NCBI GenBank assembly: GCA_022710975.1
Contig: JAKLGA010000002.1
Location: forward strand, 124,001 to 188,000
Direction of reading: 5' to 3'
Length of the DNA stretch: 64,000 bases
DNA from: Myxococcota bacterium
GTDB lineage: Bacteria; Myxococcota; B64-G9
Position numbers and translations under genes: made by a program. Below the pieces are notes generated by a model. That model did no database searches, was not told the DNA's origin, and worked only from the letters and a program-made list of their open reading frames with translations. Of this stretch, positions 40,145-49,773 are shown piece by piece; the stretch's first letter is position 1, and every line of letters begins with the position of its first letter.

Positions 40145-41659
40145 TTACCCCAGGCCGGCCAGCCTGGCGATGGCCTCGGCGCGGCGGGGTCCAAAGGCGT
40201 CCGCGCCGTCCCGCAAGAGCATCAACACCGCGTACAGGGCCCGGGGCTCCCGGCGCCAGGCCGCGACCAGGCCGCGCACCCGCGGGTGGCGCCGGCCGAG
40301 CCACAGCACCTGCCCGGCGCGGCCGCGCTCCCAGGTCGAGGCCAGCAACCGCCCGCGGCAGAAGCGCACCCGCGCCCCCTCGCAGCCTGGCACCAGGCCC
40401 TCGGCCAGGGCGGCCTCCAGGGCGGCGGCCAGCCCGGCCTCGGCGGGCTCGAGCTCCTCGAGCGGCACGGCCCTCTGCAGGATCAGCCCGCGCCGCAGCG
40501 CGCGCCCGAGCCGCCCCAGGCGCTCGGCCAGCGCGCGCCGCAGGCGCCGGCCCGGCCCGGGGGGCGTGGGCCGCCTGGCCGGCTCGTGCACCACGAGGCC
40601 CAGGTGGCGCTCGACGAAGGCCCGCTCGGCCTCGTCCAGCACCAGCACCACCCCGTCCAGGAGGTGCTGCCCGGGACGCGCCTCCGGCCCCAGGGCCCGC
40701 AGACCGCGCCCGCGGGCCAGCGCCGGCAGCTCCTCCGGCCGGTAGGCCGCCCCGTCCAGCCCGCGGAAGAGCGGCACCCCGGCCGCCGCGGACGCGCCCT
40801 GCCCCGCGTCGGCCAGGCGGAAGAGCAGCTCGGCCAGGCGGCGCTGGTCGGCCGGGGGCAAGCGGGGGAAGAACCCCCTGGCCTCGTGCAGCAGCCGGGC
40901 GGCGCACTCCGCGGCCAGCGCCAGGGCCTCGCGCTCCCTGCCCGGCGGCCCGTCCACCAACGCGTCCCACACCTCGCCCCCGGCCGGGCTGGCCCACACC
41001 TCGCGGCGCAGCACGCCCCGCTCGAGCACCCGCGTGCGGGCCGCGTGCCCCCGCCGGGGCAGGCCGACCACGGCCAGGAGCTCGCCTCGCCGGGTGGTGG
41101 TCGAGCGGAGCACGTCCTGCAGCACGAGCCCGCGATCCACCCGCCGGCCGTCGACCTCCGCGCGGAAGCTGGCGTGCTCCAGGTGGCTGGCCGCGGCGCG
41201 GGCCCAGCCGGCGGTGTCGGCCTGGAGCCCGTCCAGCCGCAGGCGCGCGCCGGCTGCGCCGGCCTCGACCGCCAGGCGGATCACCCGCGGCCGCCCGACC
41301 ACCCGGAGCGCCCGGCCCCCCGCGACCAGGCTCGCCTCACGGGCGGGCAGCACGAAGGCCACCAGCAGGTCGAGCAGCCCGCCAGCCTCCAGCGCGTCCA
41401 GGGCCCGCCGCCGGACCTCTTCCGGGACGGCCGGATCGAGCGCCCGGCCGAGCGCCTCGAGCGCCTCGGCCGCGGGCGGCGCCCCGTCGTGCTCGAGCTC
41501 GAGCCGCCGCCGCGCCACGCGCAGGGCGAGCCGGGCCGGGTGGGCCCCGGCGGCCCAGCGCGCGAGCGCCACGGCCGCGTACTCCGGCCCGGGCAGCCGG
41601 CCGAGGGCCAGCTTGGCCAGGGCCGCCTCCAGGTCCACGCTGAGCAGGGCCTCCTTCAC
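40145..41659 (-). CDS. Degenerate Hsp90/GHKL-like partner protein
   Basis: This 504-residue protein has no signal or membrane helix. Its first 200 residues can be laid against the ATPase domain of the upstream protein. RLALRVARRRLELEHDG matches the strand before the G1 box, EASLVAGGRALRVVGRP the region after the G2 box, and FRAEVDGRRVDRGLVLQDVL the end of the fold. The catalytic Glu/Asn of the N box and the glycines of G1 and G2 are missing, so it is probably a non-hydrolysing copy. The rest is Leu/Arg-rich helical sequence. The GTG start overlaps the upstream stop as GTGA, so the two proteins are made together. This relationship is my inference from eye alignment. Confidence 0.75.
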   Translation of the reverse strand: MKEALLSVDLEAALAKLALGRLPGPEYAAVALARWAAGAHPARLALRVARRRLELEHDGAPPAAEALEALGRALDPAVPEEVRRRALDALEAGGLLDLLVAFVLPAREASLVAGGRALRVVGRPRVIRLAVEAGAAGARLRLDGLQADTAGWARAAASHLEHASFRAEVDGRRVDRGLVLQDVLRSTTTRRGELLAVVGLPRRGHAARTRVLERGVLRREVWASPAGGEVWDALVDGPPGREREALALAAECAARLLHEARGFFPRLPPADQRRLAELLFRLADAGQGASAAAGVPLFRGLDGAAYRPEELPALARGRGLRALGPEARPGQHLLDGVVLVLDEAERAFVERHLGLVVHEPARRPTPPGPGRRLRRALAERLGRLGRALRRGLILQRAVPLEELEPAEAGLAAALEAALAEGLVPGCEGARVRFCRGRLLASTWERGRAGQVLWLGRRHPRVRGLVAAWRREPRALYAVLMLLRDGADAFGPRRAEAIARLAGLG

Positions 41660-44613
41660 CTGGGCACCTCCAGCGCGGCCCGGGCCACCGCCCGCCGCAG
41701 GGCCGGGGCCGCGGCGGCCAGCAGCGACGACTCCTCGGCCAGCCGATCGAGGAGCACGGCCGCGGCCAGCGCGGGGGAGGCCTGCCCCAGCCCCCCGGCC
41801 AGCCCCTGGAAGAAGGGATGGGCCCGGTGCAGCGCCACGAACCGCCGCGGCCAGCCCGAGCCCGGCGGAGGACGGAGCGGCGAGAGATCCACGTCGTGGC
41901 AGAGCCGCTCCGCCCCGGCCTCGACCAGGCAGCAGGGCGGCGCGCCCGAGCTGGCCAGGGCCGGCGCCAGGGCGGCCAGCAGGGCCGCCTCGGCCGGCCT
42001 GGCCTCGTCCAGCGGCCGATCGAGCGCCAGCTCGGCCAGCTCCCGCAACCCGGCCGTGCGTCCGAACAGCGGGCCGAAGCAGGGGTCGTCGGCGTCCAGC
42101 ACCAGGGCCCCGGCCCTGCGGGCGGCCTCGGCCAGCGCGTCCCCGGCGCGGCCGACGAACATGCGACCCGCCGGGATGCGCTCGACGAGCTGGGCGAGCG
42201 AGGCGCTCCGCCCGTGCAGGCAGGGCAGGAACGGGCGATACCACAGGCCGGGCACGTGCCGCCAGGCCCGCGGCCGGCGGAGCGCGTCCTCGGCCATGCC
42301 CGCGAGCAGCGCGCGCCGGGCGGCCGGATCGGCCCGGGCGCGCAGCCGCCCGCGCTGGCCGAGCCCGCTCAGCGCGAGCAGCGCCCCGGCCAGCAGGGCC
42401 AGCCCCCCGAGGGCGATCGCCAGCCAGCGCGCGGCCAGGGGGGACGCCGCCGCGGGGGCCCGCGTCGCGCCGGGGCCGGGCGCGACCAGGGCGGGCGCAC
42501 CGGGAGCCACGGCCTGGACGCGGGCCGCGTCAGGCCGGGCGCCGCCAGCGGCCGGGGCGGCCACCCGCGCCCCCGCGGTCGCGTCCACCACCTGCAGGCG
42601 ACCGTCCAGCCACACCTCCACCCAGGCGTGCAGGCCGGGCACGCCCCGGCCGTCCTGCCCCACGATGCCCACCACCAGGCGCGCGGGCAGCCCGGTCCGG
42701 GCCAGCAGCAGCGCCAGCACGCCGTTGAGCACGTCGCAGTCCCCGGCCCCGGTCGCGGCCACGGCGGCCGCCCAGCCGTCCGGCGGACCGAGGCTGGCGC
42801 CGCGCAGGCGCTCCGCGGCCTGGGCCGAGCGGTCGTACGCCAGGGCGTCCTGGACCGCGCGCGTCAGGCGCGCCACGCGCTCCGCGTCCGCGAGCCCGCG
42901 CACCTCCTCGAGCGCGCGCTCGAACGACCCTGGCAGCGCGAGCCCCGCGGCCCAACCCGGCGGCGTCCGCAGCCCCACGGGCCGGGGACCGCCAGGCAGC
43001 GCGCGGTAGCGCAGGGGGCCCGGACCCTCCACCTCGCGGGCCGGGCGCAGCCAGCCGTCCGCGGACACCTCGAGCGGCAGGGGCTGCCCGCGCAGCCGGC
43101 CGCTCCGGGCCTCCGGCTGGAAGCCCGTGGGCACCGGCAGGTACGGCCGCCCGAGCCGGCCGGCCGGGAGCAGCAGCTCCACCTCCAGCACCCCCTGCCC
43201 GCCCGCGTCCCGCGCGGAGGCCGGCGCGAAACCGCCCGGAGCGCGCCCGGGCGAGAAGCCCCGGCTCGCCTCGAACTCCTCGAGGCTGGCCAGGCGGAAG
43301 AGCCGGGGCGCGGGCGGCGTGTAGCTGAGCGCCCAGCCGGGCTCCACGGCCTGCGCCGGCGTGATGGCGCCGGCCCGCAGCCCGGCGGCGCTCTCGGCGG
43401 TCAGCACCGGGCTACGGGTGGGCGCCGGGCGGAGCCCGACCGCGGGCGCGTCCCCCGGGGCCGGCCGCGGCGGATCGCCGGGGACGGAGGCGGACACGAT
43501 CGCGGGCCCGCCCTCCGGCCGGGCGACCCGGGCGCGGGCCGCGAGCAGTCCGAGCGCGCCGCCGGCCACCACCAGCAGCAGCGCGAGCGCCAGGGCCGTG
43601 GCCCAGACCGGGCGGGCGGACAGCCCGCGCGCGGCCTCCCGCAGCCAGGTCAGCAGCCGCCGCCAGGGCGTGGGGCGCGCCGCGCCGTCCAGGGTGCGCG
43701 AGACCAGCTCGTCGAAGCGCCGCCGGGCGACGGCCAGCAGCCGCTCGAGGGCCTGGTCGCGCACCACCTCCTGGCGCGAGAGCACCACCCGGAGCTGGTT
43801 GCCGTTCAGCAGGAAGACCGGCGCCACGCCCTCGCGCTCGGCCGCGGGCCGCGCCGGGTGCACCCGGCGCACGCCCACCTCCAGCTCCTCGAGGAAGGCG
43901 CCCTCCGCCACCGGCAGCCCGCGGGCCAGCAGGCGGTAGGCCGGCCGCGGGCCGAAGCCCACCACCCCTTCGACCGGCCCCTCCACGAACTCCAGGGTGT
44001 CGGCGCCGGGCAGGCCGAGCGGGCGGCTCACGAGCTCGCCGTCGAGCCACACGGGCAGCGGGGCCGCCCGCCGCCGGCAGGAGCGCAGGTGCGCCAGGTA
44101 GCGCTCGAGCCCGGCCCGCACCTCGGCCCGGAAGGGCTGCAGCTGCTCGGCCGTCCCGGGCCGGCGGAGCCGCACCGTGGTCCCGCGGCCCGCGTGGGCG
44201 CACGGGCACCAGCGCCAGTCCTCGAGCCCGCCATCGAGCCACACGCCCCAGCCAGGCTCGGCGGCGCGGCCGGTGCGGGCGTGCACCTCGAGCTCCGCGG
44301 GCTCGAAGCGCAGCACGCTCCAGAAGCCCACCCCGAACCGGCCGGCCGCGGAGCGCTCGGAGTCCTTGCTGGAGGCGTACAGCCGGAAGAGGTAGCGGCG
44401 GGCGTGGGCGCGGGTCATGCCCAGGCCGTCGTCGGCGAAGGACAGCGCCAGCAGGCCTCCCTCCCAGGAGCAGCGCACCTCGATGCGGCTGGCGCCCGCG
44501 TCTCGTGAGTTCTGCCCCAGCTCGCGCAGCAGCACCCACGCATCGTCCCCGTAGCGCCGACCCTCTTGCCGCGCCCGGCGGAGGAAGTCCTGGCTGTCCG
44601 CGCCCGCGTCCAT
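41656..44613 (-). CDS. Membrane fusion of Hsp90/GHKL-type ATPase and transglutaminase-like domain
   Basis: This 985-residue protein has four parts. The cytoplasmic N-terminus (1-330) has a Bergerat ATP fold: N box E31-L-G-Q-N35-S-R-D38-A, G1 box D62-G-L-G65, G2 box G91-R-F-G94-V-G96. One membrane helix lies at about 336-360. An outer domain (360-728) contains a transglutaminase-like catalytic triad C626 (GAGDCDVLNG), H662 (LHAWVEVW) and D677 (VVDATAG). A second helix (730-751) leads to a 235-residue cytoplasmic tail. So ATP binding inside could control a protease, cross-linking or structural domain outside. I know no family with this arrangement. A GTGA overlap couples it to the next gene. 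The start is near-leaderless after TAGACT. Confidence 0.85.
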   Translation of the reverse strand: MDAGADSQDFLRRARQEGRRYGDDAWVLLRELGQNSRDAGASRIEVRCSWEGGLLALSFADDGLGMTRAHARRYLFRLYASSKDSERSAAGRFGVGFWSVLRFEPAELEVHARTGRAAEPGWGVWLDGGLEDWRWCPCAHAGRGTTVRLRRPGTAEQLQPFRAEVRAGLERYLAHLRSCRRRAAPLPVWLDGELVSRPLGLPGADTLEFVEGPVEGVVGFGPRPAYRLLARGLPVAEGAFLEELEVGVRRVHPARPAAEREGVAPVFLLNGNQLRVVLSRQEVVRDQALERLLAVARRRFDELVSRTLDGAARPTPWRRLLTWLREAARGLSARPVWATALALALLLVVAGGALGLLAARARVARPEGGPAIVSASVPGDPPRPAPGDAPAVGLRPAPTRSPVLTAESAAGLRAGAITPAQAVEPGWALSYTPPAPRLFRLASLEEFEASRGFSPGRAPGGFAPASARDAGGQGVLEVELLLPAGRLGRPYLPVPTGFQPEARSGRLRGQPLPLEVSADGWLRPAREVEGPGPLRYRALPGGPRPVGLRTPPGWAAGLALPGSFERALEEVRGLADAERVARLTRAVQDALAYDRSAQAAERLRGASLGPPDGWAAAVAATGAGDCDVLNGVLALLLARTGLPARLVVGIVGQDGRGVPGLHAWVEVWLDGRLQVVDATAGARVAAPAAGGARPDAARVQAVAPGAPALVAPGPGATRAPAAASPLAARWLAIALGGLALLAGALLALSGLGQRGRLRARADPAARRALLAGMAEDALRRPRAWRHVPGLWYRPFLPCLHGRSASLAQLVERIPAGRMFVGRAGDALAEAARRAGALVLDADDPCFGPLFGRTAGLRELAELALDRPLDEARPAEAALLAALAPALASSGAPPCCLVEAGAERLCHDVDLSPLRPPPGSGWPRRFVALHRAHPFFQGLAGGLGQASPALAAAVLLDRLAEESSLLAAAAPALRRAVARAALEVPR

Positions 44614-44682: not shown

Positions 44683-45171
44683 ATGGAGTCCTACCGGCTC
44701 GAGTCCGAGTACCCCGTGCCTGCCCGCAGGCTGTTCGACCTCCTGCGGAGCCCGGCCTGCCAGGAGGCCCTGGCGCTGGTGCGCGGGGCGCAGGAGGTCA
44801 GCGCCCAGGCGCTCGAGCAGCGGGGCGCGGTCCGGCCGCTCGAGCTGGAGCTCAGCCTGCCGGGCTGGGACGTGCTCGGCCGCCCGCGCGGCGCCGAGCG
44901 GGTGGTCGAGCACCAGGACTGGGACGCGGACGGCCTGGCCGGCCGCTGGGTGCGCCACTTCCGCGAGCGCGGCCAGGCGGTGGTGTGGGAGGGAGAGTGG
45001 CAGCTCCACGTGCTGGGGCCCGAGGCCTGCCGGCTGGTGGAGGTCGGACAGATCGAGATCCGCACGCCCCTGGTGGGGCGCAAGGTGGAGCGCGCGGCGC
45101 TCGCGGAGCTCCAGGCCCGCCACCCGCGCGTGGTGGACCTGCTGCTCCGCCAGCTCGGCGCCCTGGAGTGA
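44683..45171 (+). CDS. DUF2505-like (Bet v1/START-fold) protein
   Basis: This 162-residue soluble protein starts MESYRLESEYPVPARRLFDLL, the pattern of DUF2505 and other SRPBCC-fold lipid- or ligand-binding proteins. The next conserved-looking part runs from WDVLGRPRGAERVVEHQDW to VGQIEIRTPLVGRKVER, which closes the pocket in this family. No signal peptide. GGAGGGG precedes the ATG. It is divergent from the GHKL-transglutaminase gene (69 bases apart) and 29 bases ahead of the propeller lipoprotein on the same strand. Ligand unknown. Confidence 0.8.
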   Translation: MESYRLESEYPVPARRLFDLLRSPACQEALALVRGAQEVSAQALEQRGAVRPLELELSLPGWDVLGRPRGAERVVEHQDWDADGLAGRWVRHFRERGQAVVWEGEWQLHVLGPEACRLVEVGQIEIRTPLVGRKVERAALAELQARHPRVVDLLLRQLGALE

Positions 45172-47562: not shown

Positions 47563-49773
47563 ATGAGGCTCCACCCGACCTGGCTCGCCCTGGCCCTGGC
47601 CCTCGCGTTCGCCGCCGCGGCCTGCCAAGGGGAGATCTCCCCGCGCTGCGTGACGGCCGCCGACTGCGACGACCAGAACCCGTGCACCGACGACCGCTGC
47701 GACCCGACCATCGGCTGCGTGTCCAGCGCCAACGCCGCGGCCTGCGAGGACGGGAGCGCCTGCACCGCGGGCGACGCCTGCGCCGCCGGCCTGTGCCAGC
47801 CCGGCGCGGCCGTGGTGTGCGACGACCAGAACCCCTGCACCGAGGACGCCTGCGACCCGGCCGCGGGCTGCACCGCGGCGCCCAACAGCGCGCCCTGCGA
47901 AGACGGCGACGTGTGCACCGCGGGCGACGCCTGCGCCGCCGGCCTGTGCCAGCCCGGCGCGGCCGTGGTGTGCGACGACCAGAACCCCTGCACCGACGAC
48001 ACCTGCGACCCGGCCACGGGCTGCGAGCACTCCCCGGGCACCGCCGGCTGCGAGGATGGGGACGCCTGCACCGCCGGCGACGCCTGCGCCGCCGGGGTCT
48101 GCCAGCCCGGCGCGGCCGTGGTGTGCGACGACCAGAACCCCTGCACCGACGATGCCTGCGACCCGGCCACGGGCTGCACCGCCACGCCCAACGCGCTCGG
48201 CTGCGAGGACGGGGACGCCTGCACCGCCGGCGACGCCTGCGCCGCCGGCCTGTGCCAGCCCGGCGCGGCCGTGGTCTGCGACGACCAGAACCCCTGCACC
48301 GACGACACCTGCGACCCAGCCGCGGGCTGCGCGGCCACCCCCAACGCGCTGGCCTGCGAGGACGGGGACGCCTGCACCACGGGCGACGCCTGCGCCGCCG
48401 GCGCCTGCCAGCCCGGCGGCCCCACCGGCTGCGACGACGGCGACGGCTGCACCGCGGACGGCTGCGACCCGGCCGCGGGCTGCACGCACGCCTACGCCTG
48501 CCACCCCCAGGCCGCCTGCGTCTCCAGCGCCTGCGTGTGCCAGGGTGGCTGGATCGGAGACGGGTTCCAGTGCAGCCCGCCCTGCGGCGACGGCGCCTGC
48601 GGCGCGGACGAGGATCTGGCCTCCTGTCCGCAGGACTGCGACTACGACCTCCTGCTGCTCGCGCCGACGCAGCTGCTCGCGGACCTCGGCCCTCAGCTCG
48701 TCCAGTACCAGGCCGACGCGGCCACGGAGGGGGCGCGGGTGCTCACCCGGGCCTGGACGGGCGGCACGCTGGCGGACCTGCGCGCGCTGCTCGTCGACGA
48801 GCGCGCGCGCCACGCCGTGGAGGGCGCCTGGCTGCTCGGCAGCCTGCCGGCGGCCTGGTACGAGCAGACCGCCTTCGAGACCTGGGAGGAGTTCCCCACC
48901 GACGTCTACCTGCTGGACCTGGACGCGACCTGGACCGACGCCGACGCCAACGGCCGGTTCGAGGGCCACACGGCCATCACCACCGAGCTGTTCGTGTCCC
49001 GGCTGGACGGCAGCCTGGCCCAGCTCCAGGCCTACTTCGCCAAGCTGCACGCCTACCGGACCGGCGGCTCGCTGGTCACCCCCAGCGCCTTCATCTTCAA
49101 GGACGACGACTGGTCCGACTACGTGGCCGGGGTCGACTGGGGCCTGGACGCCCTGTACACCGTGTTCCACAAGCTCGAGGCCCTGGCCGACACCACCCGG
49201 GCCAACTACCTGGCGCGCATGACCGGCACGGGGGCCGAGTTCGTCTACCAGTGGATCCACTCGGACTCCACCACCCTGTACATCGCCGGCAGCGGCGGCG
49301 GCACGGTGAGCACCGACCAGGTCGCGAGCGAGGATCACCGGGGCTCGTTCTTCAACCTGTTCGACTGCTCCGGAGCGCGCTTCACCCAGACCAACTTCGG
49401 CAACGTGTACCTGACCCGCACCACGCGCGGCCTGGCCAGCATCGGCTCCACCAAGACCGGCGGCATCTACGATCCGTGGAGCTTCCACGGCGCCCTGGGC
49501 GAGGGCTCGAGCTGGGGCGAGGCCTTCCAGCGCTGGTACGACGCCACCGGACGCTGGGACGACGAGTGGTACCTGGGCATCGTCATCCAGGGCGATCCCC
49601 TGCTGCGGCTGCAGGGCGACACCCGTGGCCTCGTCCGGTCCGCCGCGGGGCGCGCCCCGAGCGCGGACGAGCTCCGGGCGCTGCGGGAGAGCCTGATCCG
49701 GCGCGGACCCGGACGCGGCCTGGAGAGCTTCGCCGACTACCGCGCGCGGCACCCGGAGTTCTTCCGCGACTAG
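47563..49773 (+). CDS. Lipoprotein with cysteine repeats and C25/caspase-like domain
   Basis: This 736-residue protein has signal peptide and lipobox (A-A-A-A-C, near residue 21). Residues 36-290 are five 51-residue cysteine-rich repeats (DDQNPCTDD, CDPAxGC, CEDGDACTAGDACAAGLCQPG) plus a sixth, partial one. An EGF-like and a GDGxC-type module follow. The last 380 residues look like a gingipain/caspase-type (C25) fold with probable catalytic H566 (WIHSDST) and C602 (FDCSGA), 36 apart, near the usual spacing. Family members cleave surface proteins. The assignment of the domain is moderate. It follows the propeller lipoprotein by 22 bases, so co-expression is likely. Confidence 0.82.
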   Translation: MRLHPTWLALALALAFAAAACQGEISPRCVTAADCDDQNPCTDDRCDPTIGCVSSANAAACEDGSACTAGDACAAGLCQPGAAVVCDDQNPCTEDACDPAAGCTAAPNSAPCEDGDVCTAGDACAAGLCQPGAAVVCDDQNPCTDDTCDPATGCEHSPGTAGCEDGDACTAGDACAAGVCQPGAAVVCDDQNPCTDDACDPATGCTATPNALGCEDGDACTAGDACAAGLCQPGAAVVCDDQNPCTDDTCDPAAGCAATPNALACEDGDACTTGDACAAGACQPGGPTGCDDGDGCTADGCDPAAGCTHAYACHPQAACVSSACVCQGGWIGDGFQCSPPCGDGACGADEDLASCPQDCDYDLLLLAPTQLLADLGPQLVQYQADAATEGARVLTRAWTGGTLADLRALLVDERARHAVEGAWLLGSLPAAWYEQTAFETWEEFPTDVYLLDLDATWTDADANGRFEGHTAITTELFVSRLDGSLAQLQAYFAKLHAYRTGGSLVTPSAFIFKDDDWSDYVAGVDWGLDALYTVFHKLEALADTTRANYLARMTGTGAEFVYQWIHSDSTTLYIAGSGGGTVSTDQVASEDHRGSFFNLFDCSGARFTQTNFGNVYLTRTTRGLASIGSTKTGGIYDPWSFHGALGEGSSWGEAFQRWYDATGRWDDEWYLGIVIQGDPLLRLQGDTRGLVRSAAGRAPSADELRALRESLIRRGPGRGLESFADYRARHPEFFRD
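47668..48432 (+). repeat. Five exact-period 153-bp tandem repeats inside the C25-like gene
   Basis: The sequence GACGACCAGAACCC begins at 47668, 47821, 47974, 48127 and 48280, exactly 153 bases apart each time. A sixth, diverged unit starts at 48433. Units are highly similar at DNA level, more than protein constraint alone needs. Because 153 is a multiple of three, gain or loss of a unit keeps the frame. Confidence 0.95.

Follow-up and report, generated by a model that had tools for sequence, protein, structure and literature searches.

A predicted membrane-spanning Hsp90-like ATPase with an inserted transglutaminase domain and an adjacent degenerate Hsp90-like partner in Myxococcota and other bacteria

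Introduction

How can enzymes of the bacterial cell envelope be driven from inside the cell? Since the periplasm contains no ATP, this is a general question, and it is raised by a locus of a Myxococcota bacterium (NCBI GenBank assembly GCA_022710975.1, contig JAKLGA010000002.1) in which a single gene, termed P1 here, combines an Hsp90-like ATPase with a transglutaminase domain that is predicted to lie outside the cytoplasm. Known Hsp90 relatives are soluble or lumenal ATPases. The window analyzed is a stretch of 64,000 nucleotides from this contig (positions 124,001 to 188,000), and all coordinates refer to it. P1, the downstream gene P2, and their homologues were compared using sequence profiles, structural models and genome context.

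Architecture and integrity of P1

The original prediction, made from the sequence of the window, described P1 as a Bergerat-fold ATPase with N box, G1 and G2, after which come a transmembrane helix, an outer domain of transglutaminase type, another helix and a tail in the cytoplasm; the same order was recovered here, with all ATPase motifs present (Table 1). Residues E31, N35, D38, D62, G65, G91 and G96 of the proposed ATPase, as well as C626, H662 and D677 of the proposed transglutaminase triad, all occupy the positions assigned to them. Both domains also scored above the curated Pfam cut-offs: HATPase_c_3 (PF13589) at residues 28-100 (E 6e-9; 36.4 bits, cut-off 25) and Transglut_core (PF01841) at residues 575-677 (E 1.4e-10; 41.8 bits, cut-off 23). 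Likewise, hydropathy maxima at approximately residues 336-357 and 727-749 coincide with the two helices of an AlphaFold2 model of P1 (mean pLDDT 81.5, pTM 0.62), in which confidence is low at the N-terminus, in the ATP-lid region (78-95) and in both linkers. The topology of P1 in the membrane is a prediction from hydropathy and homology.

Table 1. Features of the P1/P2 locus, with positions in the window
Feature	Position	Strand	Evidence or remark
P1, Hsp90-like ATPase predicted to span the membrane, with a periplasmic transglutaminase inserted	41656..44613	-	Open reading frame of 985 codons (985 aa), ATG at 44613, end at 41656
P1 residues 10-175, N domain of Hsp90 type (Bergerat/GHKL ATPase; E31, N35, D38, D62-G65, G91-G96)	44089..44586	-	Pfam, HtpG profile match, hhalign, motifs in 35/35
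P1 residues 180-312, initial part of the Hsp90-like middle domain, containing the invariant R280	43678..44076	-	hhalign, Foldseek, R280 in 36/36
P1 residues 336-363, transmembrane helix 1 (predicted)	43525..43608	-	Hydropathy, AlphaFold2 model, alignment
P1 residues 425-545, TgpA-like beta-rich module, predicted periplasmic	42979..43341	-	Profile match to 6g49, model
P1 residues 575-677, transglutaminase core with triad C626-H662-D677	42583..42891	-	Pfam, triad conservation
P1 residues 726-751, transmembrane helix 2 (predicted)	42361..42438	-	Hydropathy, AlphaFold2 model, alignment
P1 residues 756-985, cytoplasmic tail: second part of middle domain and C-terminal-domain-like region	41659..42348	-	hhalign, homology to P2 tail, soluble relatives
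P2, pseudo-Hsp90 partner, 504 aa, N-box Asn and G2 lid lost	40145..41659	-	GTG start overlaps P1 stop (GTGA)
Divergent DUF2505 gene	44683..45171	+	Pfam; shares intergenic region with P1

Distribution of P1

Near full-length homologues of P1 were identified in a search of 58 relatives' genomes; their identity to P1 was 40-47% in genera other than its own within the family, and 33-41% in other families. Within the family of the source genome the pair is common. A scan of the contigs of named genomes with the single P1 sequence returned no relative, and an alignment-based scan of named genomes returned 41 further loci. At 38 of these 41 loci, all or most of the P1 profile is contained in one frame; at two others (L079 and L082) the homologue is divided between two overlapping frames, whether by sequencing error or by decay, and L086 holds a fragment at a contig edge. 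Taking the two sets together (the 58-relative search and the 41-locus scan, on which the prevalence figure rests), the architecture occurs, nearly always in one open frame, in about 40 species of Myxococcota, Acidobacteriota (including Aminicenantes and Vicinamibacteria), Fermentibacteria and Eisenbacteria, supporting the original proposal that an Hsp90/GHKL ATPase and a periplasmic transglutaminase are built into one gene. Cultured carriers include Nannocystis, Plesiocystis, Enhygromyxa and Paraliomyxa, and metagenome-assembled carriers come from Aminicenantes, Vicinamibacteria, other Acidobacteria, Fermentibacteria and Eisenbacteria.

A frameshift or an erroneous joining of two genes had been named as the finding that would undo this design. 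The GC content by codon position is even over the whole P1 gene, with no frame switch, and this uniformity, along with the one-frame homologues in other families, rules out a joining artefact or frameshift. The broader suspicion that P1 is a joining artefact or a product of chance motif matches has next to no probability, considering the identical architecture in about 40 species, the Pfam cut-offs that P1 passes and its confident AlphaFold2 model.

The Hsp90-like portion of P1

The best match of the P1 family profile in the PDB was HtpG (E 1.4e-6), and the N domain matched an alignment of HtpG sequences from related genomes at an hhalign E-value of 8.5e-17. The N box, G1 (DxGxG) and G2 (GxxGxG) are all present, which places P1 among the GHKL/Bergerat ATPases. 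The similarity continues into the middle domain, where the segment LLNGNxLxVVLSRxxVxxDxAL aligns by hhalign with the catalytic-Arg segment of HtpG, VIDSDDLPLNVSREMLQ, such that R280 falls on the catalytic Arg of Hsp90. The tail gave a weak match to HtpG (E 0.002 alone, with low probability; 4e-4 in combination with the middle segment), but a collinear one by hhalign, with KRILEVNPKHP of P1 opposite RRFVALHRAHP of HtpG and the rest of the middle domain and the C-terminal domain following in order; it is also homologous to the tail of P2 (E 1e-4). In addition, the P1 model matched TRAP1 and other Hsp90s in Foldseek (E 4e-12, probability 1.0) over approximately 340-380 columns covering the N and middle domains.

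Thus, P1 has an Hsp90 N domain and a middle domain with the catalytic-Arg position, and together with its C-terminal region it is predicted to be a catalytically competent Hsp90-like chain. The Pfam HSP90 family (PF00183) matched neither P1 nor P2, and P1 is therefore filed as a divergent Hsp90-like relative outside PF00183. No canonical Hsp90/HtpG (PF00183) was found in the source genome (98.6% complete) or in several of its relatives. Assignment of P1 as the canonical HtpG is ruled out, as PF00183 is absent from both P1 and the source genome.

The inserted transglutaminase hairpin

In the outer part of P1, residues 437-685 matched TgpA (PDB 6g49) at a profile E-value of 7e-5, the match extending beyond the transglutaminase core, and TgpA was the only solved transglutaminase retrieved by the family profile. 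The core fold of PF01841 and its C-H-D triad are both found, and catalysis is predicted. The periplasmic portion of TgpA has transglutaminase activity in vitro (PMC3507681), and for this reason the outer domain of P1 is likely to be an enzyme as well.

Soluble Hsp90-like relatives of P1 (L041, L042 and L045) align with residues ~24-295 and then directly with ~755-945, omitting the hairpin; their second-half matches are individually weak, yet in order in each. The continuous Hsp90-like order without a hairpin is also seen in P2. Because the soluble relatives lack roughly residues 300-755, and because they and P2 are continuous at this point, alignment indicates that the hairpin (helix, TgpA-like module at 425-685, helix) is inserted between the two halves of the Hsp90 middle domain. 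The earlier picture of two domains fused end to end was thus correct in placing both in one chain, but that chain is an Hsp90 into which the transglutaminase hairpin has been inserted.

The P2 partner

Pfam gave no match for the P2 protein, but hhalign comparison of the profile of its family (A3) with P1 revealed homology (E 3.9e-11 across 189 columns). A structural model of P2 (mean pLDDT 89.2) matched full-length Hsp90s in Foldseek (E 1e-15) over approximately 630 columns at an rmsd of 14-16 A, a high value that probably reflects the arrangement of the domains, which is either different or uncertain. The N-box Asn, a Mg-binding residue, is gone from the P2 family, its position being occupied mostly by R and otherwise by S, A, V, M and others, and the GxxGxG glycine lid is missing; the N-box Glu is gone as well in 7 of 27 sequences, including P2 of this locus. 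On these residues P2 does not qualify as an active GHKL ATPase; since the N-box Asn and the glycine lid are lost, it is predicted to be a pseudo-ATPase. At all 39 loci where the contig continues, P2 lies directly downstream of P1, mostly less than 100 bases away. From these observations we infer that P2 is a soluble Hsp90-like paralogue serving as a non-catalytic partner of P1.

Proposed mechanism and conservation of the active sites

The domain content and order of P1, the insertion, the catalytic residues of P1, the loss of motifs from P2 and the constant adjacency of the two genes are well supported by sequence and structural models. On this basis, P1 and P2 are proposed to be the two subunits of a transmembrane ATPase belonging to the Hsp90 superfamily; its ATP-dependent clamp would move the helices and in this way control which state the outer enzyme adopts. 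This is the most probable of the readings considered, at about even odds. In such a machine, P1 and P2 would dimerize as Hsp90 protomers do, through N- and C-terminal contacts; ATP binding would shut the P1/P2 clamp, and hydrolysis would reopen it. Because the two helices emerge straight from the P1 middle domain, closure of the clamp in the cytoplasm would shift them, and their movement could toggle the outer transglutaminase between inactive and active states, so that a cytoplasmic cue would govern cross-linking or cleavage of envelope proteins. The more specific version, in which an obligate active/pseudo heterodimer uses cytoplasmic ATP to switch a periplasmic transglutaminase via the two inserted helices, is held tentatively. 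No published precedent for an Hsp90-superfamily machine acting across the membrane in the inside-out direction was found in the open-access literature.

If correct, the proposal would describe a new use of the Hsp90 clamp, namely, transmembrane control of an extracytoplasmic enzyme. A natural pairing of active and pseudo-Hsp90 also bears on why Hsp90 has two protomers and whether both must hydrolyze ATP, and P1/P2 make the general question of driving envelope enzymes from inside testable in cultured Nannocystis, Plesiocystis and Enhygromyxa.

Conservation indicates that both active sites of P1 are under selection. E31, N35, D38, G65, G91, G94 and G96 do not vary among the 35 sequences aligned there, D62 being replaced by N in six of them, and R280, C626, H662 and D677 are the same in 36 of 36 (alignment A2). 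As the scan pattern GDCDVxNG includes C626, the count for this residue is partly by construction; nevertheless, the complete triad is also invariant in all 11 homologues found without a Cys pattern. By domain, identity is highest in the ATPase (0.46), followed by the transglutaminase core (0.39), and falls to 0.17-0.19 in the linkers; the membrane helices are poorly conserved in comparison with the ATPase and the transglutaminase core.

These values bear on two other readings of the locus. In the first, P1 would be an outside-in receptor: sensing or processing of an envelope ligand by the periplasmic domain would move the helices and so control a cytoplasmic clamp acting on cytoplasmic clients. 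The anatomy of P1 is compatible with either direction, and the ATPase is its best conserved part; however, an invariant, full C-H-D triad favors an enzyme over a mere sensor, and no downstream signaling gene is conserved, making this reading unlikely. The second, which we likewise consider improbable, is a membrane-tethered chaperone, whose clamp folds or assembles an envelope complex at the membrane while the enzyme outside cross-links or trims this client on its own, with no allosteric coupling through the helices. Hsp90 relatives are chaperones, the source genome is without a canonical HtpG, and the variable linkers beside the helices would fit a loose tether; against this, the hairpin interrupts the middle domain instead of extending one end of the chain, which suggests coupling.

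Genomic neighborhood

The genes adjacent to P1 are P2 and the divergent DUF2505 gene, with no adjacent DUF58. A DUF2505 homologue adjoins the P1 homologue in four related genomes (L029, L031, L032 and L034), and its product is SRPBCC/START-like according to our own reading of the sequence. As a neighbor in close relatives only, this gene is probably not core to P1/P2. OsmC is likewise found beside P1 in close relatives, and other neighbors are lineage specific: a beta-lactamase-fold protein and DUF3014 in Aminicenantes, and Spo0M, a thioesterase and a SpoU methylase in Nannocystis. In a reduced-set comparison of P1-locus neighbors, none beyond P2 was conserved across phyla. Elsewhere in the window, the plus strand encodes a secreted-looking protein with tandem Cys-rich repeats (47563-49773; CDDQNPCTDDTCDPATGC).

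The neighborhood is also relevant to a possible role in conflict or defense, in which P1/P2 would be an ATP-gated envelope effector activated on infection, comparable to the peptidase effectors of NTP-dependent conflict systems. Transglutaminase-like peptidases do serve as effectors in other systems (PMC7159879, PMC8195603), and the ATPase domain has weak similarity to the PADLOC model TmtA and to NCBIfam MzaB. Both matches are limited to that domain, however, the neighboring genes are ordinary, and the pair is common in the source family, so that a defense function appears highly improbable.

Comparison with known systems

In its N-terminal ATPase domain, its catalytic-Arg middle domain and, more weakly, its C-terminal-like tail, arranged in the same order, P1 resembles Hsp90, HtpG and TRAP1; it differs from them in the enzyme-bearing membrane hairpin of the middle domain, in its degenerate partner gene and in having no PF00183 score. 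With TgpA (P. aeruginosa PA2873; PDB 6g49) it shares a membrane-bound, periplasmic combination of a beta module and a transglutaminase core. Six membrane helices are predicted for TgpA (PMC3507681), whose gene clusters with PA2874/PA2875; P1, in contrast, has two helices and carries its own ATPase in the same chain.

The MoxR-DUF58-TgpA systems similarly pair an ATPase with a periplasmic transglutaminase, but theirs is of the AAA+ type, whereas that of P1 is Hsp90-like. No Pfam match to DUF3488 or DUF4129 was obtained in P1, and its only hydrophobic helices are the two described above, with no multi-helix TgpA membrane region. The original prediction had stated that no MoxR or DUF58 gene is present. 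This holds for DUF58 on the P1 contig (C12), which has no match, but DUF58 genes do occur elsewhere in the genome, with matches on contigs C1, C7 and C11. Since the multi-helix region, DUF4129 and a DUF58 on the contig are all missing, and the ATPase belongs to another superfamily, P1/P2 is not a member of the MoxR-DUF58-TgpA systems. The earlier reading was thus right about the Hsp90/GHKL-transglutaminase design and the absence of DUF58 from the contig, but had overlooked the Hsp90 middle domain, the similarity of the tail, the insertion and P2. Neither the architecture nor the pair was found described in the open-access literature, and P1/P2 is apparently an undescribed pair.

Sacsin-type and other bacterial HATPase_c_3 Hsp90-like proteins (L040 and L041 in the source genome, G000; L042 in G007) have an Hsp90-like ATPase in common with P1; the soluble relatives share the tail as well, and some of them are accompanied by a degenerate Hsp90-like neighbor; the transglutaminase insert, in contrast, is present in P1 and in none of the soluble HATPase_c_3 relatives examined. 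At five loci of the source and related genomes (L041-L045), Hsp90-like ATPases of ~580-780 aa adjoin large degenerate Hsp90-like frames of 667-2110 aa, so that pairs of an active and a pseudo-Hsp90 appear to form a wider class in Myxococcota. One Hsp90-like protein of this set (L044, 6044-8383, plus strand) has two strongly hydrophobic stretches, at ~495-515 (by eye) and 582-605, separated by a short loop, and is possibly a membrane-hairpin variant without a transglutaminase.
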